From Maribacter polysaccharolyticus (GTDB taxonomy: Bacteria > Bacteroidota > Bacteroidia > Flavobacteriales > Flavobacteriaceae), in assembly GCF_028882255.1 (NCBI RefSeq), contig NZ_JARBUY010000001.1:681975-745974 (forward strand): a stretch of 64,000 bases of DNA, written 5' to 3'. The notes under the pieces were generated by a model. The model was not told the DNA's origin. It searched no databases and saw only the letters and a list, made by a program, of their open reading frames with translations. A program made the translations under genes and the position numbers. This document shows, piece by piece, positions 23,545 to 55,065 of the stretch (positions within the stretch are counted from its first letter, which is position 1; each line of letters begins with the position of its first letter).

Positions 23545-23587
23545 ATGATCCGTATCATAAAAAAATCCACGGTGTTTTGTAATTTTA
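23545..23587 (+). promoter_or_regulatory. Crp/FNR-type operator and -7 box upstream of cls
   Basis: Perfect ATGAT-CCGT-ATCAT at 23545-23558, extended to 7-bp arms (TTATGAT/ATCATAA). A -7-like TAATTTTA at 23580-23587 follows after 21 bp, and the cls ATG is at 23610. The spacing fits class II activation. Confidence 0.65.
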
Positions 23588-23609
23588 ACATCTATTTCAA
23601 AAATCCGCT

Positions 23610-25037
23610 ATGTACTGGAAAATTGCCCTAATAATTTATGTGTTCATAGCCATCGGAATGGTGCTGAGTTTATTGGTCAATGGTATAAAACCTGCAAAAA
23701 CATTGGCATGGTTATTAGCGATTTTCACCATTCCGGTTGCTGGTATCCTTCTTTACTGGATGATCGGAAGAAACCGGAAAAAATATTCTTGGAAAGAAAT
23801 CCATGAGGACATTGCCATTCATGATTACCTAGAGAAGGTCCAACAAAAACAGGATACGGTGGAACCTACCGAAATGGATTTCAAGGAATTTTCCAAAATC
23901 ACCCGAATGGTTGAAAAAAACAATGGATTCAAGCCCACGAAAAACAATGAGGTCAAGTTATTGAAAGATGGCAAGGCAACATTTGACGCTATTTTTGATG
24001 CCTTGGAGTCCGCTGAGGAGTACATTTATCTGCTCTATTACATTTTTGAGGAAGGCGAGCTTGCCAATCGTTTGATTTCACTTTTCGAAGAAAAGGTAAA
24101 AAAAGGGGTTAAGATAAAGATCATTTATGATGGGGTCGGCAGTTATACCCTGAGTAAAAAGTATATTGCCAAACTCAAATCGATTGGTGTGGAGGTAAAT
24201 CCGTTCCTGCCGTTTAAATTAGGCCGGTTTTTATCTTCCGTCAACTATAGGAACCATAGAAAAATCATTATTGTAGATGGTAAGATAGCTTTTACGGGAG
24301 GCATAAATATTTCCGATAAATACTTGAAAGGTGATTTGGTCCTGGGCAAATGGCACGATATGCATATTCAGTTGAAGGGAGCTTCGGTCCTAGAACTGAA
24401 AGTGGTGTTTGAAATAGATTGGTTCCTGGTTTCCGGGGATAATTCAGAATTTAAACGTGAATTGCCCTCCTTAAAAGAAAAAATCGGCAACCAGATCGTA
24501 CAAATCGTTTATGGCGGACCCGATCATTACTTCTCCCCTATCGGACAAACGTATTTTGCACTGATCAATAATGCCCAAAAATATATCTATATCACCAACC
24601 CCTATATTATTCCCGGAACGACTATCCTACATTCACTCGAAGTGGCAGCACTTAGTGGTGTGGATGTACGCCTTATGTTATCGGACAAGGCAGACAGCGC
24701 ACTGGTCAATTGGAGTGTTAGGTCCTATTTTGAGTCCCTCCTTAAGGCCGGGGTAAAGATATACCTGTTCCCGAAAGGTTTTTTACATAGTAAGATCATC
24801 GTCATTGACGATCACCTAGTTTCCATTGGAACGGCCAATATGGACATACGAAGCTTTGAACAGAATTATGAGGTAAATGCCTTGGTTTTTAACCAAGAAA
24901 CGGCTCTTATACTAAAACAGGATTTTTTGAACGAGATAGACCAAAGCATTCCGTTGGATTATGAAACCTTCAAAAACAGATCCTATCTTGAGAAGTTAAA
25001 AGAAGGTTTTGCTAAAATATTCAGCCCTATATTATAG
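23610..25037 (+). CDS. cls: Cardiolipin synthase, phospholipase D family
   Basis: 475 residues. Two N-terminal membrane helices (about 3-22 and 33-50), then two phospholipase-D HKD motifs: HRKIIIVDGKIAFTGG and HSKIIVIDDHLVSIGT, each with the expected H-x-K-x4-D. It joins two phosphatidylglycerol molecules into cardiolipin at the inner membrane. The preceding Crp/FNR-type operator suggests induction with the nearby stress island. The stop overlaps by six bases the end of the convergent ldhA gene (25032-25037). Confidence 0.93.
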   Translation: MYWKIALIIYVFIAIGMVLSLLVNGIKPAKTLAWLLAIFTIPVAGILLYWMIGRNRKKYSWKEIHEDIAIHDYLEKVQQKQDTVEPTEMDFKEFSKITRMVEKNNGFKPTKNNEVKLLKDGKATFDAIFDALESAEEYIYLLYYIFEEGELANRLISLFEEKVKKGVKIKIIYDGVGSYTLSKKYIAKLKSIGVEVNPFLPFKLGRFLSSVNYRNHRKIIIVDGKIAFTGGINISDKYLKGDLVLGKWHDMHIQLKGASVLELKVVFEIDWFLVSGDNSEFKRELPSLKEKIGNQIVQIVYGGPDHYFSPIGQTYFALINNAQKYIYITNPYIIPGTTILHSLEVAALSGVDVRLMLSDKADSALVNWSVRSYFESLLKAGVKIYLFPKGFLHSKIIVIDDHLVSIGTANMDIRSFEQNYEVNALVFNQETALILKQDFLNEIDQSIPLDYETFKNRSYLEKLKEGFAKIFSPIL

Positions 25038-26682: not shown

Positions 26683-26704
26683 GGTATTTACTTTATAGGT
26701 GACG

Positions 26705-27148
26705 TTAGTTCAATAACCTTTTCTGCTTTTCCTTTTTCATGACCTTTGAGATCATCTGGAACAAACTCCCCTTAAGTTTCCTATATTCCACCAAATAGTT
26801 ATCAATAGTAAAAATCATGTCCTTATGGGATTCGGTATACGCCTTTTCCATTTTGGGTTGATCGACATCATCGATCATGATCGACAATTGATTTTCGTGC
26901 ACTTGGGCTTTTTTCAATAGTTTTTCAGCCTCCAGTTCCGAATTGGATATGGCCGTGACCAGCTCCTTACTTTCATCATACATCCCTAAACCGGTAATTT
27001 GCAGGGTATAGGATCTCACTAATTCATTAAGGAACAATTGCTCATCGATAACAAATTTCAATGCCGAAATCCACTCCAATGAAGTTTGATGCATTTCATC
27101 CGGACTTTTCCACTCCAAATACCTGTAAATCTTATCTTTATCTTTCAT
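26705..27148 (-). CDS. Helical stress-island protein, family member A
   Basis: 147 residues, no signal or membrane segment, almost entirely helical. It belongs to a four-member paralogous family in this window (other members at 28199, 38782 and 43788). Shared features: an N-terminal helix L24-E-W26-x3-L-x-F with DEQLFLNELVRSY (D35 to Y47), a histidine in the third helix (H84, AQVHENQL) and one in the fourth (H108, ESHKDM), then EYRKLKGSLFQM and a basic end. H20 in DEMH is identical in position in member B. Function unknown. First gene of the operon leading to ldhA. Confidence 0.8.
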   Translation of the reverse strand: MKDKDKIYRYLEWKSPDEMHQTSLEWISALKFVIDEQLFLNELVRSYTLQITGLGMYDESKELVTAISNSELEAEKLLKKAQVHENQLSIMIDDVDQPKMEKAYTESHKDMIFTIDNYLVEYRKLKGSLFQMISKVMKKEKQKRLLN

Positions 27149-27475
27149 GGCCTACATTTTTAATACACTTCCATTACTATATTGCCGCAGTATTTCAGCG
27201 GTTCCCAAACCAATAACAAGATATCTTTTTTATTGTCGAAGAAAAATGATTTAGATCAGTCACCCTACTGGCCATTACACTGATTTGGATAAAGTAATGT
27301 AGGTTTTATCCTAGGTATTGTCCTATTTTTTAGACAGTTTTAATTTAGTATTCCTATTTTTGAAGGTAGTTTCATTTTTGGAAGTTAGGTATCCTTGGAT
27401 GCATATACAACATTGCAGGACACGATACCCAAATGCCATGTAGAATTTAAGTCAACATAATTGTTCGTCCCCAAA
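27149..27475. other. Regulatory gap between helical protein A and the LytTR regulator
   Basis: 327 bp, no gene. It must hold divergent promoters. The recognisable element is the operator at 27246-27259 described separately. Several T-rich stretches (27331-27390) precede the LytTR gene without a clear -7 box. Confidence 0.5.
27216..27259 (-). promoter_or_regulatory. Crp/FNR-type operator upstream of the helical A/lipoprotein/ldhA operon
   Basis: ATGAT-TTAG-ATCAG at 27246-27259, one mismatch from the perfect palindrome. On the minus strand, 22 bp later, lies TATCTTGT (27216-27223), a degenerate -7 box. The start codon at 27148 would have a leader of about 60 bases. Confidence 0.5.
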
Positions 27476-28183: not shown

Positions 28184-28198
28184 TACCTTTCAACTGCA

Positions 28199-28630
28199 TC
28201 AAAAATCGGGTTTGCGTTTCTTTAAAATCCCCCCGGCATATTCAAATATCTCGTATTTCAGATCTTTGAACATTTCCAGATAGGCCACCGTTTCCGCTTT
28301 GAGTTTTTCATGTTTTTGATGATAAAAGGTATCACAAACCGTATCGGTACATTCGAGCAATCCGCTTATGCTGTGCTCATGGTTTCCGATCTTTTCGGTA
28401 ATAACGTCCAAATTGGTATTGGATTTTTTTATTTGGGCCTTATAATCCTGTAAACGCTCAAATAAATTCGGGGTATTGGGCTCAAAAACATAGGAGTTGA
28501 GAAGTTGTTTGATAAAAGTGAGTTCATCCTGGATAAATTGTAGGCAAGATTTCCAATGAAGTACTTCCCGGTGCATCTCATCTACTTTTACCGACACCGC
28601 CTTTTTTGTCAATTTTCCCTGATAGTCCAT
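28199..28630 (-). CDS. Helical stress-island protein, family member B
   Basis: 143 residues, soluble and helical. It aligns with member A over its length: DEMH at 17-20, then VLHWKSCLQF with DELTFIKQLLNSY (D35 to Y47), histidines H84/H86 (GNHEHSI) in helix three and H104/H107 (YHQKHEKL) in helix four, then MFKDLKYEIFEYA and a basic tail. The identical spacing argues for a common four-helix fold with possible metal or ligand binding by the paired histidines. Last gene of the minus-strand run that follows the beta-CASP nuclease (70-bp gap). Confidence 0.8.
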   Translation of the reverse strand: MDYQGKLTKKAVSVKVDEMHREVLHWKSCLQFIQDELTFIKQLLNSYVFEPNTPNLFERLQDYKAQIKKSNTNLDVITEKIGNHEHSISGLLECTDTVCDTFYHQKHEKLKAETVAYLEMFKDLKYEIFEYAGGILKKRKPDF

Positions 28631-28700
28631 AGCTTTTATTTTTAACCATTAAAATTATCCATGGCCAACAAAATTTACAATGACGAAGATCAGCCGGCAT

Positions 28701-30071
28701 CTATACCATTAGTTCAATGGTCTCATAAAGTTTGGGGATATGCACATGCCAATGGTACGTATACACCAATTTACTTCTAAAAGTATCAAGTGCAGTAGGT
28801 TCGCCATGCACCAAAAAAACCTGTTCCGGTATGTTTTTCAACGCTTCGGTCCAATGCAACAGTTCCGATTGGTCGGCATGGGCCGAAAGGCTCTCCAAAT
28901 GTCTTATTTCGGCCTTTACCGGGTAATATTTACCAAAAAGCTTAAGTTCATGGGCTCCTTCCAAAAGCTGCTTTCCCCGTGTTCCTTCTGCTTGATAGCC
29001 TACCAAAAGAACAATCGTATTTTTAAGATCCACCAATTGTTTTAAATAAGTGAGCACCCTCCCACCGGTTACCATACCACTACCCGCAATAACGATTTTA
29101 GGTCGAGGGTCATCTATGGTTTCCCATGTTTCTTTATACGAACTGATGATATTCACGTGCTCGCACATGGCACGATATTCCTGTAATGACAGTTTGTGCC
29201 ATTTCGGAAACCGTTCAAAAACCGATAATACGTTATTTCCCATAGGACTATCGATAAAAATAGGAATGTTGGGAATTTTGTTCTTTTTATAGAGCATCCA
29301 CAATTGGTACATCAGCGATTGTAAACGTTCTACGGCAAATGATGGGATTATAAGCGTACCTTGTTGATGGATCGTCTTGATTACCAATTGTGTCAAGATA
29401 GCCTCGACATCCTCTTCAGGATGGTTTTTATTGCCGTAGGTACTCTCTATAAAAAGGTAATCTGCCCATTCGGGGCGTTCCGGCGGCTCCAATAACAGAT
29501 CTGCCCTTCGACCTATGTCCCCCGAAAACACGAACCGCTTCCCGAAAATCTCCAGTTCAATGAACGTCGCCCCAATAATATGACCGTTGTATTGGGTTCT
29601 GAACCGTATATTCGATGACAGGCTCGTCCATTCGTTGTTTTCTATAGCCGAAAAAAGTGCAATGGTCCTTTCCGCTTCCCGCAGGGTATAGAACGGCAAG
29701 GCGGGATCATGTTTGGAATACCCTTCTTTGTTCGCTTTTTCTGCCTCCTCTTCATGGATTTTCGCACTATCCTTCAATATGATCGCTGTTATGGCCAAGG
29801 TGGGCGACGTACCTAAAATCTGTCCCTTAAAGCCTTCTTTCAGCAATCTGGGTAAATAACCCGTATGATCCAAGTGCCCATGGGTAAGCAAAACGAAATC
29901 GAGTTTTTCTACATGGATCGGGAGCGGCTCCCAATTCATTTGACGCAGCTCTTTTAAACCTTGGAACATGCCACAATCGACCATAAGGTTCAATTCCGGT
30001 GTTTCCAAATGGTATTTAGACCCTGTTACGGTACCCGAAGCCCCTAAAAATTGAATCTTTACAGTATCCAT
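28701..30071 (-). CDS. Metallo-beta-lactamase/beta-CASP RNA-processing nuclease
   Basis: 456 residues. The metallo-beta-lactamase motif 2 is H64-G-H66-x-D68-H69 in LLTHGHLDHTGYLP; a further metal aspartate lies in FSGDIGRR. The beta-CASP domain (about 205-330) begins IESTYGNKNH, and the RMMBL tail carries VGYQAEGTRGKQLLEG and SLSAHADQSELLHW. This is the CPSF-73/RNase J-like group lacking an RNase J C-terminal domain. It probably cleaves RNA in the cytoplasm. It follows an ATP-cone/endonuclease gene by only 12 bp, so the two should be co-expressed and may act on the same nucleic acid. Confidence 0.9.
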   Translation of the reverse strand: MDTVKIQFLGASGTVTGSKYHLETPELNLMVDCGMFQGLKELRQMNWEPLPIHVEKLDFVLLTHGHLDHTGYLPRLLKEGFKGQILGTSPTLAITAIILKDSAKIHEEEAEKANKEGYSKHDPALPFYTLREAERTIALFSAIENNEWTSLSSNIRFRTQYNGHIIGATFIELEIFGKRFVFSGDIGRRADLLLEPPERPEWADYLFIESTYGNKNHPEEDVEAILTQLVIKTIHQQGTLIIPSFAVERLQSLMYQLWMLYKKNKIPNIPIFIDSPMGNNVLSVFERFPKWHKLSLQEYRAMCEHVNIISSYKETWETIDDPRPKIVIAGSGMVTGGRVLTYLKQLVDLKNTIVLLVGYQAEGTRGKQLLEGAHELKLFGKYYPVKAEIRHLESLSAHADQSELLHWTEALKNIPEQVFLVHGEPTALDTFRSKLVYTYHWHVHIPKLYETIELMV

Positions 30072-30083
30072 ATGATGATTTTT

Positions 30084-30929
30084 CTAACAGCCACACAATT
30101 GATGTAATTCTTTCATGATCCTTTTCTTCCTAGGTTCCTTGACCTCTAAATGATCTAGAAAAAAACTGTCATTCAACAATTCCCGGCACAATACAATATC
30201 GCGACTCAACAAAAATTGCTTCTCACGCTGGCTTAACAAGGTTGAAACGGTTATGGGGTACAATCCCAATCTATCGATCCGATCCCTTAATCCATCCCCA
30301 TGGGGAACATCCCAGCTTAGTAGAAAAAGGTCAACACATTTTCCGTAGGCAAGGGCATCTTCGGTGAAACGGGTATTCGTGACTACCCACCCTTTATCCA
30401 GTTCGCCATTATCATGGCTCTTGCGCTCCCAATGTTGTTTGATATCGTTGTATCTGGAATTGATATACAGGGGGATTTTTACGTTACAATTGCGTCCTTC
30501 ATCACTATGGAACTTACATTCGATTACCGCTATAAGTCCATTTTTCCTGGCCAAAACATCAACTTCATGGCTAACGCAATGACCTTGTAGCACTTTACCC
30601 ACCTCTGTAGTATATCCGGAATAGCGCAATATCGCGGCAACGAATTTTTCAAAGGGAAAACCTGTAGGTCCCAATTCGTAAATGGCTTTTTTCAACTTGT
30701 ATTTAGAAGCCAAGACCGATTTATTCTTCTTTAACAAGGCGAAAGCCCTATTGTATATTTCCCGGGTTGAAATGCCCTGATATAGTTCATCCCGGACTTG
30801 ATCCACGATTTGTTCCACCAAAGCATCTTCGGCTCCACTGCGTTGCAACGACCTTCGAAGTTTGGAAAGTGAGAATTTCATCTTATCGCCCGATGATTTA
30901 ATGACCTCTATGGCTTCTTGTTCTTTCAT
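30084..30929 (-). CDS. ATP-cone domain fused to a PD-(D/E)xK endonuclease-like domain
   Basis: 281 residues. Residues 5-90 form an ATP-cone, the nucleotide-sensing domain of ribonucleotide reductases and NrdR (IKSSGDKMKFSLSKLRRSL, ISTREIYNRAFALL). Residues 90-200 resemble a restriction-endonuclease/Mrr-type fold with GFPFEKFVAAILRYSGY and an intact active-site pattern E122-x-D124 ... E137-C-K139. The C-terminal 80 residues are helical and end in CGC. ATP or dATP sensing might gate nuclease activity. It is followed after 12 bp by the beta-CASP nuclease and preceded after 71 bp by mscS, in the stress island's leftward operon. Confidence 0.85.
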   Translation of the reverse strand: MKEQEAIEVIKSSGDKMKFSLSKLRRSLQRSGAEDALVEQIVDQVRDELYQGISTREIYNRAFALLKKNKSVLASKYKLKKAIYELGPTGFPFEKFVAAILRYSGYTTEVGKVLQGHCVSHEVDVLARKNGLIAVIECKFHSDEGRNCNVKIPLYINSRYNDIKQHWERKSHDNGELDKGWVVTNTRFTEDALAYGKCVDLFLLSWDVPHGDGLRDRIDRLGLYPITVSTLLSQREKQFLLSRDIVLCRELLNDSFFLDHLEVKEPRKKRIMKELHQLCGC

Positions 30930-31000
30930 TTGACAATATTTTCAGTTTAAGTTCAATACAAAAGTTGCCATCGCTAAGGCACTTTTAAATACACAGGATA

Positions 31001-31923: not shown

Positions 31924-32331
31924 CTATTTAGTGAAAAAATCACGCACCAATTTTTTTACTTGGTTGTCGGTCATACTATCCACTTTGGTTACCGTTTTCA
32001 CCTTGGCTGCCATTTTCGGATAGTTCTCATCCAACTCTTTCTTGAATCTTGAAGCCGTTTCGGCCGGACCGAACAATGCAATACTATCCGCTGACCCCAG
32101 GACTTTCACTAAATTCTTGAAATATGCCTTGTATTGGTGATTTTCGCGTTCCAGGAACTTACTGTCCTGTACCACATCTTGAGGGCCCCATTTGGCGGTT
32201 TTTGTACCTGAACCCCCTACGGGCCTATACGTTTCAATTTCTGAATGCAGTGTTTCAAATTTTTCCGAATCATTGTCCAACGTAACAATGTGGGCCTTTT
32301 CCTTGTCGAGCCAAATACCAATATTATCCAT
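31924..32331 (-). CDS. Archaeo-eukaryotic release-factor-like (Baeri/eRF1 domain) protein, tentative
   Basis: 135 residues from the ATG at 32331; a TTG nine codons earlier would overlap promoter sequence. It opens MDNIGIWLDKEKAHIVTL, a strand pattern often seen in small bacterial proteins related to the eRF1/Pelota and Baeri ribosome-rescue families, and its centre YKAYFKNLVKVLGSADSIALFGPAE-type segment resembles eRF1 domain 3 (LFGPAETASRFKKEL). No GGQ motif is present, so any peptide-release role is doubtful. Soluble. Lies in the usp-mscS operon of the stress island. Confidence 0.6.
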   Translation of the reverse strand: MDNIGIWLDKEKAHIVTLDNDSEKFETLHSEIETYRPVGGSGTKTAKWGPQDVVQDSKFLERENHQYKAYFKNLVKVLGSADSIALFGPAETASRFKKELDENYPKMAAKVKTVTKVDSMTDNQVKKLVRDFFTK

Positions 32332-32384
32332 AACACGTATTTTGATTAGTATGCTCAATATGATTAAAAATCAGCCCCGAAACA

Positions 32385-32398
32385 ATGATGCAAATCAG
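32385..32398 (-). promoter_or_regulatory. Weak Crp/FNR-type operator candidate before the release-factor-like gene
   Basis: ATGAT-GCAA-ATCAG, one mismatch. It overlaps the stop codon of the upstream usp gene and lies 53 bp before the start at 32331, but the sequence 22 bp downstream (CATATTGA) is not a -7 box. Kept as a low-confidence internal promoter candidate. Confidence 0.25.
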
Positions 32399-34121: not shown

Positions 34122-34967
34122 TTATCTAAACAGATTTTGCATTACCAAAAATGGAATCTTTACATGGAGTCCTATTTTGTCCAAAGTGGACTGTACCAAC
34201 ATATCTTCAAGGAAAGAATGCCTGGTGTTTATCAACACCAGCATGTCAATTTTATAATGGACGATATATTTCGTTATGGCGATGGCCTTGTCTTTTTCCT
34301 TTGAGGTCTCAAAAACCAATTTTGCCTTGGGTAAACAATCCCTAAGGAATTGTTGATTGTCTTCTTGCCTTAGGGTCAGTTTTTTTATGGGATCGATGTA
34401 AAGCATATGTATGGTCGACCTGAACGATCCCGACATTTCACAGAGTAATTTCAATTCCCTCCTATTATAGGGTACCAAATAATTGGTAGGAAACAGCACA
34501 TTCTTGGGAGGGTGGTAGGTATACCCTTCAGGAATGGCCAATACCGGACAACTTATGTATTTCAACACCTGTAAGGTATTACTTCCGAAGGTAAGGCTGC
34601 GGTCATTTGTTTCTCCCCTCGTGGCCATGACAACAATATCCATATTCTCCAGGTTGACCATATCGTTCACTTCATCGATCAAGCTCCCAAATGCGGATAC
34701 CTGTTTATATTTATGCTGGGGATTGGGGTATTCAAGGCTTATTTTCTTTTTAATCGAATTCAGCTTTTCTTCTGATTTCCTTAAGGCCTTTTCCTTCAAT
34801 TCCTCAAGAAGGCTTCTTTTTGTAAGTTTGTCTTGTTGGTATACCTCATCGGCATAGGCATGCATGATGAAAATCTCACTTTTTTCATACTTGAATACAT
34901 GACAGGCATATTTTAAAGCATTGTAAGCATTATCGGAAAAGTCGGTCGGGACCAAAATCTTTCTCAT
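34122..34967 (-). CDS. Tandem universal stress protein 3
   Basis: 281 residues from the ATG at 34967; the frame extends to a TTG at 34994, but the -7 box at 34992-34999 excludes that start. The first domain opens MRKILVPTDFSDNAYNAL; the ATP loop reads VMATRGETNDRSLTFGSNT, in which the first Gly is Ala. The second domain begins NVLFPTNYLVPYN. First gene of a leftward operon that may extend through usp 2, usp 1, the release-factor-like gene, mscS, the ATP-cone nuclease, beta-CASP nuclease and helical protein B. Its promoter has a perfect TAAATTTG box. Confidence 0.9.
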   Translation of the reverse strand: MRKILVPTDFSDNAYNALKYACHVFKYEKSEIFIMHAYADEVYQQDKLTKRSLLEELKEKALRKSEEKLNSIKKKISLEYPNPQHKYKQVSAFGSLIDEVNDMVNLENMDIVVMATRGETNDRSLTFGSNTLQVLKYISCPVLAIPEGYTYHPPKNVLFPTNYLVPYNRRELKLLCEMSGSFRSTIHMLYIDPIKKLTLRQEDNQQFLRDCLPKAKLVFETSKEKDKAIAITKYIVHYKIDMLVLINTRHSFLEDMLVQSTLDKIGLHVKIPFLVMQNLFR

Positions 34968-34991
34968 CTCGGACAATTTATTCGTTATAAT

Positions 34992-35065
34992 CAAATTTAA
35001 CTTTTAACACTTGTTAAAACCATGATTTTAGTCAGTTTGAAAATCAGTGTATTTTTATAATTTGC
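34992..35065. promoter_or_regulatory. Divergent usp3/thioredoxin promoter with Crp/FNR-type operator
   Basis: ATGAT-TTTA-GTCAG at 35022-35035 (two mismatches). Leftward, a perfect minus-strand -7 TAAATTTG (34992-34999) lies exactly 22 bp away; rightward TAATTTG begins 22 bp away at 35058. Between operator and left -7 box is an 18-bp palindrome TTTTAACA-CT-TGTTAAAA (35002-35019), spanning the -33 region and perhaps bound by a second regulator. Confidence 0.55.
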
Positions 35066-35389: not shown

Positions 35390-36229
35390 TTACTCGTGCA
35401 ATACAAGGAAAGGTATATCGGTATGGTAGCTGATTTTCTCCACTTTTGGACGAAATAGGATACGTTGAAAGAAGTTAAGGTTTTTGGCTACCATGGCAAT
35501 CATGTCGATATCACGTGATTCGGTAAAACATTGCACCGATGTTTCGAGATCAATGCCGGTAAGGGAATGAAAACTGTGTTTTACATCTTGTAAATAATCA
35601 TTCAGGAATTCTTTGTTCTCCTTTTGTTCTTCGGTTAACCCCGCTCCTTTTTTGGAAATATGCAACACCCGTAAATCCGATTGGTGCAGGTTGACCATAT
35701 CAATAAGGGTGTTCAACACTTTTAGGTCATAGTTTATGTAATAGTCCGTAGGAAACGCAATTTCCCTCGGGGGATTGAACACCGTATTTTCAGGTACGGC
35801 CAAAAGCGGGCATTTCACTTTGGTGAGCACATCCCCGGTATTACTGCCCATGGCAACTTCTTTTAACCCCGATGCCCCTTTTGTCCCCATAATGATCAAA
35901 TCGATCTTTCTTTTGGCCACCTGTCGTTTGATCGATTCGACAAAAAAATTATGTGAGGAGATGGTCGTGAAATTATGTTTGGTGTTCGGGTCTGTTTTTT
36001 CAACTTTTGCCAATAAATGTTCCAAACCGATTTTACTCTGTTCCAACATATCACCTTCGGCCAATTTCGACGAATACCTTACAGACGATTCGGCTCCTGA
36101 ATAAGGGGGAATTGGGTTTATATGCAAAAGATAAAAGGTACATGCAACATTCTTATACAACTGAATGCCATATTTAAGTGCATTCCAAGCATTATCCGAA
36201 AAGTCGGTCGGGACCAATATGTGCATCAT
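35390..36229 (-). CDS. Tandem universal stress protein 4
   Basis: 279 residues (two ATGs, at 36229 and 36226, are possible). The first domain opens MHILVPTDFSDNAWNAL and has the full ATP loop IMGTKGASG followed by MGSNT. The second domain starts EIAFPTDYYINYD near residue 155 and ends DIPFLVLHE. Monocistronic with its own promoter: a perfect Crp/FNR-type operator and -7 box directly upstream. The neighbouring gene on the right is the response regulator that is the candidate activator. Confidence 0.9.
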   Translation of the reverse strand: MMHILVPTDFSDNAWNALKYGIQLYKNVACTFYLLHINPIPPYSGAESSVRYSSKLAEGDMLEQSKIGLEHLLAKVEKTDPNTKHNFTTISSHNFFVESIKRQVAKRKIDLIIMGTKGASGLKEVAMGSNTGDVLTKVKCPLLAVPENTVFNPPREIAFPTDYYINYDLKVLNTLIDMVNLHQSDLRVLHISKKGAGLTEEQKENKEFLNDYLQDVKHSFHSLTGIDLETSVQCFTESRDIDMIAMVAKNLNFFQRILFRPKVEKISYHTDIPFLVLHE

Positions 36230-36254: not shown

Positions 36255-36298
36255 TAAAAATAGCATGTAGTAACAAACCGGTAAATGATTCCCATCAT
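36255..36298 (-). promoter_or_regulatory. Crp/FNR-type operator and -7 box upstream of usp 4
   Basis: Perfect ATGAT-TCCC-ATCAT at 36285-36298. On the minus strand TATTTTTA (36255-36262) follows after exactly 22 bp; the start codon at 36229 leaves a leader of about 20 bases. Confidence 0.65.
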
Positions 36299-36321: not shown

Positions 36322-37374
36322 CTAATAGATGCGACTTAACGTTTCTTGATCAAGTATCCTGATATTATGGTCTTCCATGGCAATCAAGCCCTCCTTTCTA
36401 AAACTGGAAAGGGTGCGGATCAAGGTTTCCGTGGCCATACCGGCAACACTGGCCAGATCACTACGCAGAATATGGATGTTACCTTGTTTGTCCCGCTCTA
36501 ATTTGTCGGCAAACTTCAATAACGTACTTGCCGTCTTTTTGCGTACGGAACCATAGGCCATTTCCAACAATTGTTTTTTGGCCTCGGTGAGGTTCTCTGC
36601 CAATACATGCATCAATTCTATGGCGAGATCATGGTTTTCCTTGACCACGGTCCTCAGTTCATCCTTACAGACCCCCACTAGTTTCGTATCTTCGATAGCC
36701 AAGGCATATTCCTCATATACCTCCTGTGCTGTCAATGAGGTAAATCCAAAGAATTCATCCGCATTATAAATGGCGGTGATCAATTCCTTACCATTCTCAT
36801 CCAATTTATAGGTTTTTACCACCCCTTTGATGATCAGATAGACCATATGCACATGGCCCCCTTCCCTAAAGATCTCTTCGCCTTGGGAAAATTCGAATTC
36901 CTGTCCGTTATCATCCAAATAATTCTTGAATTCGTGTATGGTTCGCACCCCGACTTCGGTTTCTTGCCCATTACCGGACTTGGAGCTTTGGATTTCCTTT
37001 AAAATAGCGGCCCTTGCGAGCCTACTTTCTATGGCACTGATAAGATCCGATTCTTCAAAAGGTTTGGTTAAATAATCATCTGCACCAAGGTTCATTCCTT
37101 TTCGGATATCCTTTCGTTCTGTTTTCGCCGACAAGAATATAAAAGGAATGTATTTGGTTTCCAGATCCTCGCCCAATTGTTCAAGCACCCCATAACCGTC
37201 CAACTCCGGCATCATGATATCGCAGATGATCACATCGGGCAATTTTTCTTTTGCTATGGCCACCCCCCGCGCTCCGTTTGAAGCCGTATAAACCTCATAA
37301 TCCGAAAGCTCCAAAAGTTCAGCGGTGTTTTCCCTAAGTACAGGGTCATCCTCTATCAGTAGTACTTTGTTCAT
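36322..37374 (-). CDS. Response regulator fused to a Crp/FNR-family DNA-binding module
   Basis: 350 residues in three parts. A receiver domain (1-120) with phospho-acceptor D52 in IICDIMMPELDG and lysine in YLTKPFEES. A cyclic-nucleotide-binding-like beta-roll (about 145-260) with QGEEIFREGGHVHMVYLIIKG-type sequence. A Crp-type helix-turn-helix (about 275-345) with SDLASVAGMATETLIRTLSSF. The recognition helix keeps Glu and Arg in E-T-L-I-R, as FNR has E-T-I-S-R, consistent with reading TGA half-sites. No N-terminal Fe-S cysteine cluster. Six bases after the histidine kinase gene: a two-component pair, and the likely activator of the operator family in this window. Confidence 0.92.
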   Translation of the reverse strand: MNKVLLIEDDPVLRENTAELLELSDYEVYTASNGARGVAIAKEKLPDVIICDIMMPELDGYGVLEQLGEDLETKYIPFIFLSAKTERKDIRKGMNLGADDYLTKPFEESDLISAIESRLARAAILKEIQSSKSGNGQETEVGVRTIHEFKNYLDDNGQEFEFSQGEEIFREGGHVHMVYLIIKGVVKTYKLDENGKELITAIYNADEFFGFTSLTAQEVYEEYALAIEDTKLVGVCKDELRTVVKENHDLAIELMHVLAENLTEAKKQLLEMAYGSVRKKTASTLLKFADKLERDKQGNIHILRSDLASVAGMATETLIRTLSSFRKEGLIAMEDHNIRILDQETLSRIY

Positions 37375-37380: not shown

Positions 37381-38625
37381 CTAGTTTATCACTGAATGAA
37401 GTCGATCTCCTATTGGAAGCTCGACCGTAAATTTGGTTCCTATATGCTCAATACTCTTAAAATAAACTTTTCCCCCAAGATTATTGATATGTTCCCTTAT
37501 TATATTAAGTCCAATTCCCGTTCCTTGGTTCAACAACGCATTTTCGGCCCTAAAATAGCGTTCAAAAATATGTTTTTGGTCTTTTTCGGGTATACCGATG
37601 CCTTGATCTTCAATATTCAAATGCAACATATCATCCAACACATTGATGGTTATAGCTATTTCAGAATCCTCTGGGGAATACTTCACAGCGTTATAGAGCA
37701 AATTCGTCAATATTAAGGTCACTATTTTTTCATCTTGGTAAATGACCAAATCATTAATATTATGGGGATAATCGATCCGCTGTCCCATTTTTAACAACAT
37801 ATTCGCGTTATAGACTACCTCGTTGACCACTTTACTTAAAGAAAACAGGGTGAAATCATATATTTCTTTTCCTTTTTCAAGCTTTTCAATGGAGAGGAAA
37901 TCGGTCAAAATACCATTAAGGTACCTAACCTCCCCTATTATGGTCGATAAATGCTTGTCCCGTTTCTCTTGGTCCGTGGTCTTTTTATACTTACCGACCA
38001 ATGTGGCCGAAGTCAATATCCCACTAAGTGGGGTCTTGAATTCATGCGATACTAAAGATAAGAATTTTGTCTTCAATTCACTTAATTCCCGCTCTTTTTG
38101 AAGGGCCGATTTCATCTTGCTTTCAGCTACTTCCCTTCTTTTGATCTCACTTTTGAGCTTAGCAACGGTCTCCCTTAATTCAAGGGTACGACCCAATATC
38201 TTTTTTTCGAGATATTCATTCAACTCTTTGATCTGATGGTCCCTTTCGTTAAGACCTGTCTTATCCACAATAAGGACGAGTATATAATCCGCTTCCCCAA
38301 AATTAAAAGGGTTGAGTTTGATTTTTATCGGGAACCCGCCTTTCGTCCTATGATGGCCGAATAATAGGCGATCCACCATCATTCTTTCCGATAACCTGGT
38401 ATTGGAAAAATCGGTCAAATGATCTTCAAGTTCCCTGTCATAAGGAGCGGGAACCAAAACAGTGACCGGTTTCCCTACAAGTTCACGTTCGTTGTAACCG
38501 AACATGGCTTCCGCTTTGTTGTTCGTCGCCACAATGCGGTGTTCCTTGTCCACTACCAATAATCCTTCGTAAACCGTTTCTGAGAGTAGGTTAAAAATGT
38601 AGTTGTCCTTCGCAAAAACCATCAT
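37381..38625 (-). CDS. Soluble PAS-domain histidine kinase, FixL-like
   Basis: 414 residues with no membrane helix. The PAS domain (about 10-120) has VVDKEHRIVATNNKAEAMFGY, VLVPAPYDRELEDHL and RLLFGHHRTKGGFPIKI in order, resembling the FixL PAS domain including a conserved Arg where FixL uses R220; a heme-ligand His cannot be identified with certainty. A coiled coil (125-185) leads to HisKA with phospho-acceptor His in SLVSHEFKTPLSG, then an HATPase with NLLYNAVKYS, DQGIGIPEKD and GTGIGLNII. It should phosphorylate the adjacent RR-Crp fusion. Shares an operator-bearing intergenic region with helical protein C. Confidence 0.92.
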   Translation of the reverse strand: MMVFAKDNYIFNLLSETVYEGLLVVDKEHRIVATNNKAEAMFGYNERELVGKPVTVLVPAPYDRELEDHLTDFSNTRLSERMMVDRLLFGHHRTKGGFPIKIKLNPFNFGEADYILVLIVDKTGLNERDHQIKELNEYLEKKILGRTLELRETVAKLKSEIKRREVAESKMKSALQKERELSELKTKFLSLVSHEFKTPLSGILTSATLVGKYKKTTDQEKRDKHLSTIIGEVRYLNGILTDFLSIEKLEKGKEIYDFTLFSLSKVVNEVVYNANMLLKMGQRIDYPHNINDLVIYQDEKIVTLILTNLLYNAVKYSPEDSEIAITINVLDDMLHLNIEDQGIGIPEKDQKHIFERYFRAENALLNQGTGIGLNIIREHINNLGGKVYFKSIEHIGTKFTVELPIGDRLHSVIN

Positions 38626-38721
38626 ATTGTATAGAATTGCATTAAGTTCCCATAAGGCATAAGCACATATTAAAATGGTTGGAAATTAAAGGTAAGTTAA
38701 TTCATTAGTAACAGTGGCCTT

Positions 38722-38765
38722 ATGATAAAAATCATTTTATGAAAGCATGGATAAGGCTAATTTTA
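38722..38765 (+). promoter_or_regulatory. Crp/FNR-type operator and -7 box upstream of helical C/dnaJ/cbpM
   Basis: Perfect ATGAT-AAAA-ATCAT at 38722-38735; TAATTTTA (38758-38765) starts exactly 22 bp later and the ATG is at 38782. In the other direction TAACTTAC lies 22 bp away, a weak box for the kinase gene, so the pair could be autoregulated. Confidence 0.65.
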
Positions 38766-38781: not shown

Positions 38782-39240
38782 ATGAAAAAAGTGATTACTA
38801 CTTCCAATATAGATATATCTTACATTGTCGAGGCTTTGCAGAGCTATATTGAGGACTGCGAAAAATCCAAATTCGATATCGCATTGAAAATGAAGGATAT
38901 ACGATTTTTGCAAGAACTTCTTGATCGCTATTTCGACAACATCGTCCAGGTTGGAAATTTGGATGAAATACGTGAAAGCCTTATGCGTTTTCAGGATCTT
39001 TGTTATGATTGTTCCCGTTTAAAAAAACGTATTAAAGACCACCAACGCCTATTGGTCGATATCCTCAAGGGGTATGAAGGTTTAAATATAAAGGTATTGT
39101 ACGATGAACAAGCTTGGATAGAAAAACACAGGAATACCCTTACACATGATCTAATATCCGTTGAAAAGGAGATTTTGGTGATTGCCGACAACGTAATACG
39201 GTTAGACCAGGACCATAGAAACACCATGTTACACTGTTAG
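38782..39240 (+). CDS. Helical stress-island protein, family member C
   Basis: 152 residues, all-helical, soluble. The most divergent member of the four-gene family: the N-terminal helix reads FDIALKMKDIRFLQELLDRYF (residues 31-51, shortened here to its key pattern F-x2-L-x5-RFLQELLDRY), the third helix carries H87 in IKDHQRLL and the fourth H116 in IEKHRNTL. The Trp of the other members is missing. Three cysteines (C26, C74, C77) and a final Cys152 are additional. It lies 50 bp before dnaJ and probably heads that operon. Function unknown. Confidence 0.75.
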   Translation: MKKVITTSNIDISYIVEALQSYIEDCEKSKFDIALKMKDIRFLQELLDRYFDNIVQVGNLDEIRESLMRFQDLCYDCSRLKKRIKDHQRLLVDILKGYEGLNIKVLYDEQAWIEKHRNTLTHDLISVEKEILVIADNVIRLDQDHRNTMLHC

Positions 39241-39290: not shown

Positions 39291-40193
39291 ATGGATTACA
39301 TTGACTATTATAGCGTATTGGGGATTTCAAAAAACGCCACACCCAACGAGGTGAAGAAGGCATACCGAAAACTTGCCAGAAAATACCATCCGGATGTCAA
39401 CCCGAATGATGCAGAGGCCGAACGAAAATTCAAACAGGTCAATGAGGCCAATGAGGTATTGGGGAATCCTGAAAACAGAAAAAAATACGACGAATACGGT
39501 AAAGATTGGCAACATGCCGAAGAGATAGAAAAAGCCCGGAAAGCCCAACAACAGCAGCGGCAAAACTACCAATACCAATCTTCAGGTGGATTCGGGGAGC
39601 AGGATTTTTCCGATTTTTTCGAATCCATGTTCGGAGGGAGGACTTCCGGTGGTTTTTCCAGCGGCAGAAAAGTAAAGTATCGGGGTCAAGATTTCAATGC
39701 CGAACTACAATTGACATTGAAGGATGTGTACCAAACCCATAAACGAACACTAACGATCAATGGAAAGAACATCCGCATAACCATTCCCGCGGGAATTGAG
39801 AACGGACAAACCATAAAAATCAAAGGACATGGCGGTCCCGGAAGTAACGGTGGCCCCAATGGCGATCTGTTCATTACCTTCTCGATAATAAACAACACCC
39901 CTTTTAAACGTGATGGGAACAACTTACATAAAACCGTTGACCTGGATTTATATACCGCTGTTCTTGGCGGTGAGATAACGGTCAATACCTTCGACGGTAA
40001 GGCCAAACTTAAGGTAAAGCCAGAGACCCAAAACGGAACCAAGGTAAAATTAAAATCGAAAGGGTTTCCCGTGTATAAGAAAGAAGGGCAATTCGGAGAT
40101 CTGTTCATTACCTACAGTGTAAAGACACCTACAAAGCTATCGGCTAGGGAAAAAGAACTTTTCAAGGAATTAGCCGCACTAAAAAAGACCTGA
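39291..40193 (+). CDS. cbpA: DnaJ-family co-chaperone, CbpA type
   Basis: 300 residues. The J-domain (3-70) has the H33-P34-D35 tripeptide in [11 protein letters not shown] Gly/Gln/Phe-rich linker (80-125) follows, then the C-terminal substrate-binding domains (about 130-295) with [16 protein letters not shown] and [12 protein letters not shown]. The zinc-finger domain of DnaJ is absent, as in CbpA. It stimulates DnaK in protein refolding in the cytoplasm. The next gene, three bases away, encodes the CbpM modulator, which supports the assignment. Confidence 0.93.
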
Positions 40194-43706: not shown

Positions 43707-43750
43707 ATGACATAAATCATAAATATCAAGATAGGTATGGGGTACCTTTA
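43707..43750 (+). promoter_or_regulatory. Crp/FNR-type operator and -7 box upstream of helical protein D
   Basis: ATGAC-ATAA-ATCAT at 43707-43720 (one mismatch); TACCTTTA (43743-43750) starts exactly 22 bp later; the ATG is at 43788. Confidence 0.55.
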
Positions 43751-43787
43751 TAAGACAGGATGACTGTTGAATTTAAAAAGCGGCACG

Positions 43788-44231
43788 ATGGAAAATTATA
43801 GAATTAGACCTAAAGGAGATTATATTCAGCAAACCGATTGGAACGAATTGTTCGTTTTGACGAAACATTGGAAATCCGATTTGATGTTTTATAAACAAGA
43901 CCTGGATTTCTTACATGGATTATTGAAAAAATATTTTATTTGGATTACCAAGGAGGAAAATCTTGATGTCGTAAAAGAAATAGGGAAAGGAATCTTAAAC
44001 GATAAGAAGACCGGTGACATCCTATTGCAACGTGTTGAAGAACATCTGACCCATATCGCACAAACCATTGAGGATCCCTTTAAATATGACACCCGGTTAT
44101 TTCGAAAAGAACATCAGCAACTTGAAGATGATATCGCCGCATATTATAAAACGGTTCGCCAAAACAGGAAAAAGGTCTTTGCCATAACTTCGTATATCGT
44201 GGATAGTGAAAGCCTGCAACATTTACTCTAG
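43788..44231 (+). CDS. Helical stress-island protein, family member D
   Basis: 147 residues from the ATG at 43788; an upstream TTG at 43767 is in frame but less likely. All-helical and soluble. It shares with A and B the segment KHWKSDLMF and then QDLDFLHGLLKKYF, histidines H86/H89 (EEHLTHI) in helix three and H109 (RKEHQQL) in helix four, and a following YKTVRQNRKKVFAI like the R-x-LK motif. Function unknown. The last nine bases overlap the end of the convergent glucokinase gene. Confidence 0.8.
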   Translation: MENYRIRPKGDYIQQTDWNELFVLTKHWKSDLMFYKQDLDFLHGLLKKYFIWITKEENLDVVKEIGKGILNDKKTGDILLQRVEEHLTHIAQTIEDPFKYDTRLFRKEHQQLEDDIAAYYKTVRQNRKKVFAITSYIVDSESLQHLL

Positions 44232-45239: not shown

Positions 45240-45283
45240 CTGATGCAAATCATCCTGTACCACAATATTTAAGGCTATACTTA
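45240..45283 (+). promoter_or_regulatory. Crp/FNR-type operator upstream of the TerB-like gene
   Basis: CTGAT-GCAA-ATCAT at 45240-45253 (one mismatch). TATACTTA (45276-45283), one base from TAnnTTTA, begins exactly 22 bp later. Transcription would then start near 45290, past the ATG at 45286, which favours the start codon at 45313. Confidence 0.5.
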
Positions 45284-45312
45284 ACATGGAAAAAACGACT
45301 ACTTCGGAAATC

Positions 45313-45714
45313 ATGAATACGAGTAAGGAGCAACTTTATTATCACCTGGGGTTACTATTTTACGCCATTGCGATCGCGGACAAAAAAATCCATGAAAAAG
45401 AATTTGAAAAATTCAAAACCCTTTTAAGGCAAAAGTGGTTGCACTATCCCGGATATGATAAAACTACGAACAAAAACAACGCTTTGGAATTGTATAATGC
45501 CTTTATCAAAATGCAAGACCTGGAAACCGGGAGCACTGAAAGCTTTGAGCGTTTTCGAAAATACTTTCTTAAGAACACACCGCTCTTTACGCAAGAACTA
45601 AGGGCCTTTATTTGGGAAACCGCCCAAGCGATAGCTACCTCCAATGCCCAGAAAAACAAATCGGAATTGATGGTTTTGGCCAAGCTGGGGATGCTATTGC
45701 AAAGCACCACCTAA
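45313..45714 (+). CDS. TerB-like helical protein
   Basis: 133 residues if started at the ATG at 45313, or 142 from the ATG at 45286. The later start is preferred because the inferred -7 box (45276-45283) would put the transcript start beyond 45286. YHLGLLFYAIAIADKKIHEKEFEKFKTLL resembles the first TerB helix pair, with acidic residues in I-A-D-K-x-I-H-E-K-E, and the end SELMVLAKLGMLL matches the last TerB helix. TerB-type proteins occur in tellurite/stress operons and may bind metals. Four bases overlap the end of convergent usp 5. Confidence 0.65.
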   Translation: MNTSKEQLYYHLGLLFYAIAIADKKIHEKEFEKFKTLLRQKWLHYPGYDKTTNKNNALELYNAFIKMQDLETGSTESFERFRKYFLKNTPLFTQELRAFIWETAQAIATSNAQKNKSELMVLAKLGMLLQSTT

Positions 45715-46580: not shown

Positions 46581-46880
46581 TCAGCGTTTGTTCATAATGG
46601 CTTTTCGCTTGTTCAATTGTTTTTCAAGATCCTTGATCGTATTCGCCGCGGCCTTTTCAAAATCATCTTCATTGGAACGTGCAAAAATCCTGGGACCGGG
46701 GGCACTGAGTTCCATTTCACATATTTTACCCTTTCCTGAAGGATCATTCTCTTTTTTAAAATGGACTTCTGCCCTAATGACCCATTCGAATTTACCGGCG
46801 AGCCGATTTAATTTGGAAGTTATTAGATCATTCATCGCTTCACTTGTAGGCATTTGAACATATTGAATGTTGATCGTCAT
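46581..46880 (-). CDS. hpf: Short ribosome hibernation promoting factor/RaiA family
   Basis: 99 residues, the short form of the family. It begins MTINIQYVQMPTSEAMNDLI, has AEVHFKKENDPSGKGKICEMEL in outline and ends with the helix FEKAAANTIKDLEKQLNKRK, the beta-alpha-beta-beta-beta-alpha pattern of HPF/YfiA. It binds the 30S decoding centre and idles ribosomes in stress or stationary phase. First gene of the hpf-usp5 operon with a perfect upstream operator. Confidence 0.9.
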   Translation of the reverse strand: MTINIQYVQMPTSEAMNDLITSKLNRLAGKFEWVIRAEVHFKKENDPSGKGKICEMELSAPGPRIFARSNEDDFEKAAANTIKDLEKQLNKRKAIMNKR

Positions 46881-46904: not shown

Positions 46905-46948
46905 TAAAGCTATTGTTATTCATTACGTAAAACCATGATAAATATCAT
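46905..46948 (-). promoter_or_regulatory. Crp/FNR-type operator and -7 box upstream of hpf-usp5
   Basis: Perfect ATGAT-AAAT-ATCAT at 46935-46948. On the minus strand TAGCTTTA (46905-46912) begins exactly 22 bp later; the hpf ATG is at 46880, giving a leader of about 20 bases. Confidence 0.65.
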
Positions 46949-48067: not shown

Positions 48068-48091
48068 ATTTTAAAATCATTCAATTCTCGG

Positions 48092-50125: not shown

Positions 50126-50553
50126 TCGATGTTTTTTCTAAGAGTTATCAGTTTGTCTTTTAAATTAAATTTTCGCTAAAAAAAATTCAGACAAATCTAC
50201 CTTTTTTTATTGTTTTTTAGTTTACCAAGACCGGAAAAACTATTTACAAAGATATCCACATCAAAAACCTCATAGTGCCACTTTAGGGATAGCCCTTGTT
50301 TTTATTGTATTTCCGATCTTTCTTCCTGGGTTTTTACGATCATATAACGATTTCGTATTTATGGAAACACAGGCTCTGGAAAGGAATAAACGATACCTTT
50401 TCAAAATGACATAAATAACGGCAAACATGGTTGTTATGGCATTTGTAAACGGTTTGGACACACCCCTTACTGGGGTTCAAAAATTATCATGAACGCTAAT
50501 TCTTGAACTCCGAAAACGTAGTTGATTTTCGCTAGATCCGAAAAAGTAGGGAC
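50126..50553. other. 428-bp intergenic region upstream of tkt
   Basis: Holds the tkt promoter and the end of the TonB-receptor transcript. An AT-rich stretch (50140-50220) is adjacent to the tkt start. A 63-codon minus-strand frame (50270-50461) has no recognisable product and is not called. No strong hairpin seen. Confidence 0.45.
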
Positions 50554-53370: not shown

Positions 53371-53538
53371 TATACGTTTGTCGGTTTACCCAAATATATA
53401 ACATTTTGTTAATTTACCAACATCCTTCTAAAAGTAGGTCTCCTGGGTAAAAACCATGTGCCCACGTCATGGTGTAGCCGTTAGACAACTTCGACTATCG
53501 CTGTTTAAAATTAACCCTCGGCAATACGTTTACACCCC

Positions 53539-54615
53539 TTATTTCACATTGAATTTGAAGGAAGTCACCGTGGTATAATTTTCCCCTGGGTTCAATACGG
53601 TGGTCGGAAAATCAGGCCGATTCGGGGAATCGGGATAATGTTGTGTCTCCAAACAAAACCCACTTCTTTTGCCATATACGCCCCCACCCGGGATAGGGAG
53701 GGTGCCATCCAAAAAATTACCGGTATACAATTGCACTCCGGGTTCCGTTGTGGCTACTTCCATGGTTCTCCCCGTTTTGGGTTCAGAAACGGTCGCTACG
53801 GTACGCAATCCGGAATCTTGATCGTTCAATACCCAACAATGATCATAGCCCCCACCTTTTTCCAACTGGCCATGGTCTGCATCGATATCCTTCCCGATGG
53901 CCTTAGGCGACCTAAAATCGAACGGGGTCCCGGCTACTTTCATGAATTCGCCTGTCGGAATCAAATTTTCATCAACAGGAACAAGTTTGTCCGCATCCAA
54001 GGTAACCTCATGTTGAAGAACGGGGGTTAAAAAATCACCGGAAAGATTAAAGTAACTATGTTGTGTGAGGTTTACAACGGTAGGTTTATCCGTGATGGCC
54101 CCATAGGCTACCTCCAGGGCATTATCCTCGGTAAGTGTATACGTAACGTTACAGGTTAGATTCCCGGGAAAACCCTCTTCCATATCCTTACTAAAACAGC
54201 TAAGTTGCAATGAAACGCCCCCTCCTTTTTCACCTTCCGTCGCTTGCCATACTTTTCTATCGAAACCCTTTATACCCCCATGTAAACAATTGGGGCCATT
54301 ATTGGCCGCCAAGGTATATGTAGTGCCGTTCAATTTAAATTCGGCATTCGCTATCCTATTCCCATAACGGCCCACCAAGGCACCAAAAAACGGATTCTCA
54401 TTTTCATACTGTTCCAAGGTATCGAAGCCCAAGACCACATTATTGAAATCCCCATTATTATCAGGAACGGATATCCTGGTAATACGCCCTCCATAGGTTA
54501 TGATATCCACTTCCATCCCGTTTTTGTTCCTTAAGGTATAAAGATCCACGGATTTATCGTCCGAAGTAATGCCGTATACCCGTTTTACAAGCGTTGCCTC
54601 CTTTTGTGCGGCCAT
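53539..54615 (-). CDS. galM: Aldose 1-epimerase (mutarotase)
   Basis: 358 residues, ATG start, no obvious signal peptide. GalM motifs: GGRITRISVPD, NRIANAEFKLNG, the NGPNCLHGG loop with its catalytic His, LTQHSYFNLSG with the second catalytic His, DHCWVL, and the catalytic Glu in GFCLETQHYPDSPN. It interconverts alpha- and beta-anomers of galactose, glucose or other aldoses. Transcribed in the same direction as the TonB receptor, 168 bp apart, with no partner genes for galactose metabolism nearby. Confidence 0.95.
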   Translation of the reverse strand: MAAQKEATLVKRVYGITSDDKSVDLYTLRNKNGMEVDIITYGGRITRISVPDNNGDFNNVVLGFDTLEQYENENPFFGALVGRYGNRIANAEFKLNGTTYTLAANNGPNCLHGGIKGFDRKVWQATEGEKGGGVSLQLSCFSKDMEEGFPGNLTCNVTYTLTEDNALEVAYGAITDKPTVVNLTQHSYFNLSGDFLTPVLQHEVTLDADKLVPVDENLIPTGEFMKVAGTPFDFRSPKAIGKDIDADHGQLEKGGGYDHCWVLNDQDSGLRTVATVSEPKTGRTMEVATTEPGVQLYTGNFLDGTLPIPGGGVYGKRSGFCLETQHYPDSPNRPDFPTTVLNPGENYTTVTSFKFNVK

Positions 54616-55065
54616 AGTAAAGATGTTTTTTATATTCCTGATTATTCCCTGCCAACAGGCAAGACCAAAGATCGCCCCAATGGTTCACTTATAAAAGCCA
54701 TTGTATGGCAAATTTCATATAATTTTGTTTTCAATATCCGCATTTTACTTAAAAACCAGTGAAAATAGGTTGTATAAACCTTTATACCGACTAATTGTAT
54801 TACCCTTTGGGGCCATAATGCGACGACCCTATCCGAAAAGTCAAATTGTTTCCACTTTCTAAAAATTCCAATGAAAAAGGTAGGATTAAATACCATAGGT
54901 TCTTTAGTTGGTTACGTGTAGGATCATTCGGTTTTTTTGACAAAGGCCGAGTCATGATCCTATGGTATTTTATACTCAAAATATTATGACATAAGTCATG
55001 AATATTATTTACTTATCGTCTGATCTTTGAAAGCGAAAATCGTAATTTCACATTTTTATATTCCA
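54616..55065. other. 450-bp intergenic region between galM and the efflux operon
   Basis: Contains divergent promoters. An 84-codon minus-strand frame (54642-54896) gives a Phe/Trp-rich product without family resemblance and is not called. The right end carries the operator at 54986-54999. Confidence 0.5.
54986..55029 (+). promoter_or_regulatory. Crp/FNR-type operator upstream of the tolC efflux operon
   Basis: ATGAC-ATAA-GTCAT at 54986-54999 is a perfect palindrome with two symmetric changes from the ATGAT form. GATCTTTG (55022-55029), one base from TAnnTTTG, begins exactly 22 bp later; the ATG is at 55066. Confidence 0.55.

Follow-up and report, generated by a model that had tools for sequence, protein, structure and literature searches.

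Class II activators of Escherichia coli are centred at -41.5, 29.5 bp from position -12, and the promoters of Bacteroidota carry TTTG at -33 and TAnnTTTG at -7; to our knowledge, activator-dependent promoters of this phylum have been little studied. Of the systems closest to the one considered here, DNR recognizes the box TTGATnnnnATCAA, as given in an excerpt of PMC1274295, and NmpRSTU of Myxococcus xanthus includes an oxygen-sensing kinase, according to an excerpt of PMC11841059. Here we describe a 14-letter DNA dyad that stands at one fixed distance before promoter boxes in many flavobacteria. It was studied in a stretch of 64,000 nucleotides from Maribacter polysaccharolyticus (contig NZ_JARBUY010000001.1, positions 681,975 to 745,974), referred to throughout as the window; coordinates are those of the window, with the strand in parentheses. 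The composite form, HTGAY-N4-RTCAT followed after 22 bp by TAnnTTTR, has the appearance of an activator operator fused to a promoter of the Bacteroidota type. We judge it about 77% probable that this is a class II operator–promoter module of the Crp/Fnr superfamily, read by a regulator in which a receiver is fused to a Crp-type output, together with its paralogues, and governing a low-oxygen regulon.

A fixed distance between dyad and promoter box

How closely is the position of the dyad tied to that of the promoter? To answer this we examined 80 loci, the best 80 of 582 relatives of the candidate regulator encoded in the window; by title they are mostly Flavobacteriaceae, and two come from one genome. 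These loci contain 469 dyads of the form [AC]TGAY-N4-RTCAT. The box TAnnTTTR begins at a gap of 22 bp in 247 of them, at 21 bp in two and at 23 bp in none, while the other gaps from 0 to 60 bp have a mean of 1.0 and a maximum of 6. The narrower form ATGAY-N4-RTCAT accounts for 96 sites at gap 22. The peak is also present when the distal outer base is T (23 of 60 dyads with proximal RTCAT) or G (8 of 15). Dyads with the wrong spacers N3 or N5, with swapped inner bases, or of the form TTGAY..RTCAA gave no gap-22 site in these loci. In a wider set of 60 relatives, 52 of which had a match, 77 of the 150 places among the matches listed are at gap 22, and no other gap from 8 to 36 bp exceeds 7.

At gap 22 the centre of the dyad lies 29.5 bp from the first T of the box. 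The initial annotation had proposed a class II Crp/Fnr geometry near -41.5, and the commonest gap is indeed the one that reproduces the E. coli distance, so that the predicted centre falls at about -41.5. Might the dyads instead be operators of a repressor from another family, or of a Crp/Fnr protein that represses? Activation and repression are not separable by sequence, and repressor operators usually tolerate varied positions. A fixed 29.5 bp from centre to box, with almost no spread, is what contact between an activator and polymerase would produce, and we regard repression as quite improbable.

One variant, [AC]TGAY..RTCAG with a proximal outer G, was tried and rejected; of its 225 dyads in the 80 loci, only 3 have the box at gap 22, against 8 with it at gap 23. 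Most of these dyads are true sites read on the other strand, which accounts for the low number inside open reading frames, 13 of the 225.

The refined motif

The initial annotation had given the consensus as ATGAT-N4-ATCAT. The dyad stands, but that sequence is too narrow, the distal outer base being C or A and the inner bases mostly Y and R. Among 305 non-identical sites, each required to hold TGA, TCA and TAnnTTT, the distal outer base is C in 53, A in 32, T in 10 and G in 4 per cent, and the proximal outer base is T in 98%. The inner bases are mostly T or C in the distal half and A or G in the proximal half; the sequence is A-rich upstream of the dyad and T-rich just downstream. The proximal half-site lies on the -33 region, a possible reason for its strict T.

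The exact dyad ATGAT-N4-ATCAT occurs 31 times in the whole genome (4 of them inside the window), against 3 for the reversed pattern. A scan of the genome with the composite pattern gave 41 sites against 1 for the reversed pattern. Allowing up to two mismatches, the window holds 74 dyads against a shuffle mean of 56.9, and one of 100 shuffles reaches 74; because this loose dyad barely exceeds the shuffles it is weak evidence alone, and it was dropped as a test. Could the dyads then belong to a repeat element that has spread, or have arisen by chance in DNA rich in A and T? They are self-complementary and AT-rich, and the loose form behaves much as chance would have it. But across the 80 loci box and gap stay fixed while the intervening sequence shows almost no conservation, and reversed controls are low. 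We find this explanation hardly credible.

Placement relative to genes

Open reading frames of at least 100 amino acids were called mechanically. In the 80 loci only 7 of the 247 composite sites lie inside such frames, which cover 81% of the bases; this is the comparison of coding with intergenic density by which the proposal was to be judged. For the four control patterns (N3, N5, swapped inner bases, TTGAY..RTCAA) the share inside frames is 67–92%. The related claim that exact copies are intergenic does not extend to the whole genome, where several exact dyads without a box occur in long open reading frames (seen by eye, untallied). Of the dyads lacking a perfect box, 13 of 138 are inside frames; since most are outside, some could function with an imperfect box. 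For the 241 composite sites that have a downstream frame, the box stands a median of 23 bp from the start, and 194 of them are no more than 150 bp away from it. Site density around the regulator gene in the 80 loci is 194 per Mb, against about 8 per Mb in the whole M. polysaccharolyticus genome (39 of its 41 sites, those beginning with A or C, in 4.76 Mb), different genomes being compared.

Sites within the window

A position weight matrix with a fixed gap was built from the 80 loci, and its scores across the window were compared with those in 10 Markov samples of the window, the best of which reached 14.1. Six window sites score at least 20. The site CTGACTAAAATCAT-22-TAAATTTG at 34992..35035 (-; score 29.9) precedes the universal stress protein gene 34122-34994, and ATGATAAAAATCAT-22-TAATTTTA at 38722..38765 (+; 28.7) precedes gene 38782-39240. 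The ribosome hibernation factor gene 46581-46880 is preceded by ATGATATTTATCAT-22-TAGCTTTA at 46905..46948 (-; 26.6), gene 28199-28630 by CTGATCTTCGTCAT-22-TAATTTTA at 28650..28693 (-; 26.2), and gene 43767-44231 by ATGACATAAATCAT-22-TACCTTTA at 43707..43750 (+; 23.5). The sixth, ATGATGGGAATCAT-22-TATTTTTA at 36255..36298 (-; 20.2), lies between the regulator gene and the universal stress protein gene 35390-36229.

The remaining sites are weaker. At 27216..27259 (-), before gene 26705-27148, CTGATCTAAATCAT-22-TATCTTGT scores 16.8, above the best Markov value, with an imperfect leftward box. The exact dyad at 23545..23587 (+), before the cardiolipin synthase gene 23610-25037, has its box, TAATTTTA, at gap 21; it scores near zero with the fixed-gap matrix and is graded weaker because that gap is rare elsewhere. 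Three sites fall within the range of the best Markov scores, yet all precede genes: ATGACATAAGTCAT-22-GATCTTTG at 54986..55029 (+; 13.2), before an open reading frame at 55027-56547 that by eye is outer-membrane efflux-like; CTGATGCAAATCAT-22-TATACTTA at 45240..45283 (+; 10.1), before gene 45286-45714; and CTGATTTGCATCAT-22-CATATTGA at 32355..32398 (-; 8.5), before gene 31924-32358. Position 15405 (-) scores 15.5 with the same matrix and has no good dyad.

The initial annotation had listed most of these sites. The exact dyads it placed at 23545, 36285, 38722 and 46935 are all present, as are those with one mismatch at 27246, 43707 and 45240 and with two at 35022 and 54986. Its boxes were also found again: perfect at gap 22 for 36285 (-), 38722 (+), 46935 (-), 43707 (+) and 35022 (-), perfect at gap 21 for 23545 (+), and with one change at 22 bp for 54986 and 45240. 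The strong site at 28693 (-) had been missed.

The candidate regulator and its kinase

Which protein might bind the dyad? The gene at 36322..37374 (-) encodes, by Pfam matches, a fusion of receiver, cNMP_binding and HTH_Crp_2 domains with the recognition helix GMATETLIR. Matches to PF00027 and PF13545 over the cut-off place the protein in the Crp/Fnr superfamily, and a PF00072 receiver with the acidic pair, the phospho-acceptor Asp and the Lys marks it as a response regulator. The receiver residues E8, D9, D10, D52 and K104 and the helix residues E316, I319 and R320 are each kept in at least 97% of 76 sequences (the window and 75 of the 80 loci). The nearest named relative among the best 80 of 582 is from Maribacter luteus, at 91% identity. 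The four-cysteine [4Fe-4S] signature of FNR is absent, since the protein contains only two cysteines, of which one belongs to the receiver; nor are the Glu, Arg and Ser/Thr that contact cyclic AMP (cAMP) kept, Phe, Tyr and Glu standing in their places in an alignment to the mycobacterial structure 3h3u.

Directly upstream lies the gene of a PAS histidine kinase, 37381..38625 (-). A related kinase precedes the regulator in 73 of 75 relatives, and one of the two misses is at a locus edge. At the position of the FixL heme histidine, 62 of 68 aligned kinases (L096–L175, the window kinase and its paralogue included) have His, which need not mean heme; the window kinase has Leu.

The 38722 dyad can also be read leftward, at 38692..38735 (-), where with the weak box TAACTTAC it precedes the kinase–regulator operon and scores 15.9, above the best Markov value. 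Elsewhere in the genome a perfect site stands before a kinase gene (L225) that apparently runs up to a paralogous receiver-Crp fusion (C15:543329). These two sites make autoregulation plausible.

The genome encodes six proteins with a Crp-type helix-turn-helix (HTH), and three of them share the helix pattern E..IR: the window fusion, its paralogue and a stand-alone FNR-like protein (L061). Two further dense islands of sites were noticed in this genome, at C15:543000-623000 and C14:687000-708000; the former holds the paralogous fusion and the FNR-like gene.

Could L061, which lies beside genes of cbb3-oxidase type, be the main or only reader, leaving the receiver-Crp fusion with other targets or as a modulator? 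L061 shares the helix in the form TATESAIR and has its best score, below the cut-off, to Fnr; a site stands behind its own gene (C15:622403) and another before ccoS (C15:619074). In one genome with sites (G285), the sole HTH match (54-residue query, E ≤ 1e-3) is a stand-alone protein without a receiver. On the other hand, many genera have their sites clustered around the receiver-Crp gene, and in three genomes with sites (G065, G191, G223) the sole match is a receiver fusion. We consider it unlikely that L061 is the main or only reader. Taken together, the four genomes suggest that each type of regulator may read the element. The regulator of the operator is most likely the receiver-Crp fusion of the window.

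Target genes and the likely signal

The 41 sites of the genome precede, among others, genes for universal stress proteins (recognized by eye, except 35390), HPF, HemN, CcoS, pyruvate:ferredoxin oxidoreductase (PFOR), PPDK and RseC, and further genes for a DUF4405 protein, an AhpD-like protein and a CBS-like protein (by eye). A RIC-like target matches ScdA_N over the Pfam cut-off and RIC below the NCBIfam cut-off. Another site precedes a cytochrome c gene two genes ahead of a NosZ-like start (by eye) in what looks like a nos operon. Some sites have no called gene within 150 bp, for example L207 (287 bp), L217 (313 bp) and L223 (191 bp). The description of the targets as stress genes, made in the initial annotation, was thus right but incomplete, hemN, ccoS, PFOR, the RIC-like gene, PPDK and the nos-like operon belonging to the set as well.

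Judged by this content, low oxygen is the likely signal, for hemN, ccoS and PFOR are low-oxygen genes. They speak against assigning the sites to a Crp/Fnr protein that, like MalR, senses carbon sources and not oxygen or the redox state. According to an excerpt of PMC8510549, a Flavobacteriales Crp/Fnr homologue was grouped loosely with Bacteroides MalR in a meta-regulon study, whose scan used a MalR matrix, a different motif. A carbon-source regulon therefore seems to us very improbable.

In the window, the targets include two universal stress proteins, 35390..36229 (-; by Pfam) and 34122..34994 (-; from the sequence, by eye), and the HPF/YfiA ribosome hibernation factor 46581..46880 (-; family match). 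Three members of one helical family, 38782..39240 (+), 43767..44231 (+) and 28199..28630 (-), follow strong sites, the first being followed in turn by a DnaJ-type chaperone gene (39291-40193), and a fourth, 26705..27148 (-), is a probable target behind a weaker site. These four paralogues, each with its strong or weaker operator upstream, are of about 150 residues and have no Pfam match. The model of 43767 consists of long helices with a mean predicted local distance difference test score (pLDDT) of 85, and a fold search with it gave no PDB match at E ≤ 0.001.

A second helical family is represented by 45286..45714 (+), a target by conservation, since its homologues follow 32 of the 273 sites in the 80 loci. 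It too lacks a Pfam match; homologues occur in 43 open reading frames of the 80 loci, and its all-helical model (pLDDT 85) is TerB-like by eye. Foldseek returned no match at E ≤ 0.001; at rank 5 stood Porphyromonas PG1108 (2h5n), with E 1.1 and probability 0.89.

Two neighbours inside the island of stress genes are recorded as observations. Gene 28701-30071 encodes a Beta-CASP metallo-hydrolase with scores below the cut-off to models of Cas14 (type VII CRISPR) and aCPSF1, and gene 30084-30929 a fusion of an ATP-cone with an Mrr-type nuclease domain.

Conservation across genomes

Conservation, the other check that had been put forward, was found at two levels. Within the genus, sites of the W-type pattern are present in 12 of 12 genomes, with 7–38 each against 0–3 in the reversed control. 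Within the class, the strict form occurs in 109 of 247 genomes and is missing from 138; there are 329 strict sites against 7 in the control columns (controls counted by eye). A site lies within 260 bp behind the regulator gene, as at 36255..36298 in the window, in 59 of 78 loci, the remaining two being too short.

What follows the sites? For the 273 sites found in the 80 loci, the following gene is similar to window gene 35390 in 68 cases, 34122 in 35 and 45286 in 32; in 79 it has no match in the window set, and in 15 no gene was called. The HPF gene of the window, at 99 residues, is below the 100-residue limit and hence outside the comparison set; among the 79 unmatched genes, starts of HPF, HemN, CcoN and Hsp20-like proteins were recognized by eye.

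Does the recognition helix go with the motif? Across the 247 genomes, a strict helix pattern and the strict motif are both present in 69, the motif alone in 40, the helix alone in 50 and neither in 88. As a marker the strict helix pattern was rejected as too narrow, 22 genomes with at least two sites lacking it. Sixteen of these 22 and six genomes without sites were followed up, 30 of their HTH matches being examined as loci. A Crp-type HTH match is present in every one of the 16, and the helix E..IR was found in 14 of them. Of the six without sites, two have no HTH match, two have E..SR helices and two E..IR helices. These very few cases suggest a link between the helix residue, I or S, and the outer base of the operator.

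A proposed mechanism and the points against it

We propose that a dimer of the Crp/Fnr superfamily would bind the dyad, whose centre lies 29.5 bp before the first T of the -7 box, at about -41.5. The promoter-proximal half would overlap the -33 region, and the regulator may contact RNA polymerase in class II fashion. The adjoining PAS kinase would phosphorylate the receiver-Crp fusion, whose phospho-acceptor is intact. The paralogous fusion and the stand-alone FNR-like protein, with their matching recognition helices, might act together with the window regulator on shared sites, and the regulon would serve survival under low oxygen and energy limitation.

Several observations weigh against this interpretation. 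The wider relatives have gap 23 in 7 of the 150 places among the matches listed, and the site behind the regulator is absent in 19 of 78 loci. The association of motif and helix is moderate (odds ratio 3.0, p = 3.7e-5, uncorrected for relatedness): the strict site is missing from 50 of the 119 genomes with the helix, and the strict helix pattern from 40 of the 109 with the motif. Two genomes with sites (G138, G139) show no E..IR helix in the single locus scanned in each, and two others (G104, G063) carry the helix yet have no site. By sequence alone, any of the three E..IR proteins may be the binder. Finally, the window kinase is without the PAS histidine common to most of the aligned kinases, so that oxygen sensing by it is not implied.

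More tentatively, and with a probability that we put slightly below even, the rigid module, its proximal half-site merged into the -33 element, may serve both a receiver-Crp fusion driven by phosphorylation and an FNR-like paralogue that responds to a ligand or to redox state. Both kinds of input would then converge on the same promoters in a low-oxygen and dormancy regulon spanning the Flavobacteriia, with the receiver replacing cyclic-nucleotide (cNMP) or Fe-S sensing.

A rigid set of sites whose candidate regulator is plausibly itself a target offers a handle on how activators work at the -33/-7 promoter. It offers a further handle on the preparation of flavobacteria for the loss of oxygen and on the receiver-Crp architecture, and it assigns several protein families that lack a Pfam match to what is likely to be a regulon of low oxygen and hibernation.

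Comparison with known systems

Two known boxes were tried as candidates and rejected. The E. coli FNR box gave no TTGAY-N4-RTCAA composite site in the genome, while 54 of the 247 class genomes have at least one; in the 80 loci, none of 32 TTGAY..RTCAA dyads is at gap 22. The CRP box TGTGA-N6-TCACA occurs as 2 dyads in the 80 loci, neither with a box at gap 22. Among the papers listed in a literature search, neither this motif nor a receiver-Crp fusion was described for Flavobacteriia in any title or opening of an abstract, which does not prove absence.

The FNR, ANR and DNR regulons share with the present system a regulator of the Crp/Fnr superfamily, a 5-4-5 dyad with a TGAY core, the -41.5 geometry, and hemN, cbb3-oxidase and probably nos genes as targets. 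They differ in that the outer bases here are C or A and T, not T and A, the -7 box is TAnnTTTR, of Bacteroidota type, not TATAAT, and the candidate regulator carries a receiver domain and lacks the four-cysteine cluster. HcpR of Bacteroides is likewise a Crp/Fnr protein of the Bacteroidota; its HcpR2 motif, however, is GTAACnnnnGTTAC, and hcp is its sole target in most Bacteroides, according to the excerpt of PMC1274295.

Mycobacterial DevR/DosR is also a response regulator, in control of a dormancy programme under hypoxia that includes universal stress proteins, but its output domain and operator are different and the analogy is functional only. NmpRSTU is a multi-component kinase system over universal stress protein, cbb3-oxidase and HemN genes; its response regulator, in the excerpt of PMC11841059, is NtrC-like, not Crp/Fnr. 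In FixLJ–FixK of rhizobia the parts are a PAS kinase, a receiver and a Crp/Fnr output, as here, and the targets are microoxic. The flavobacterial system differs in its operator and in a window kinase without the FixL heme histidine, and it joins receiver and Crp/Fnr output in a single protein.

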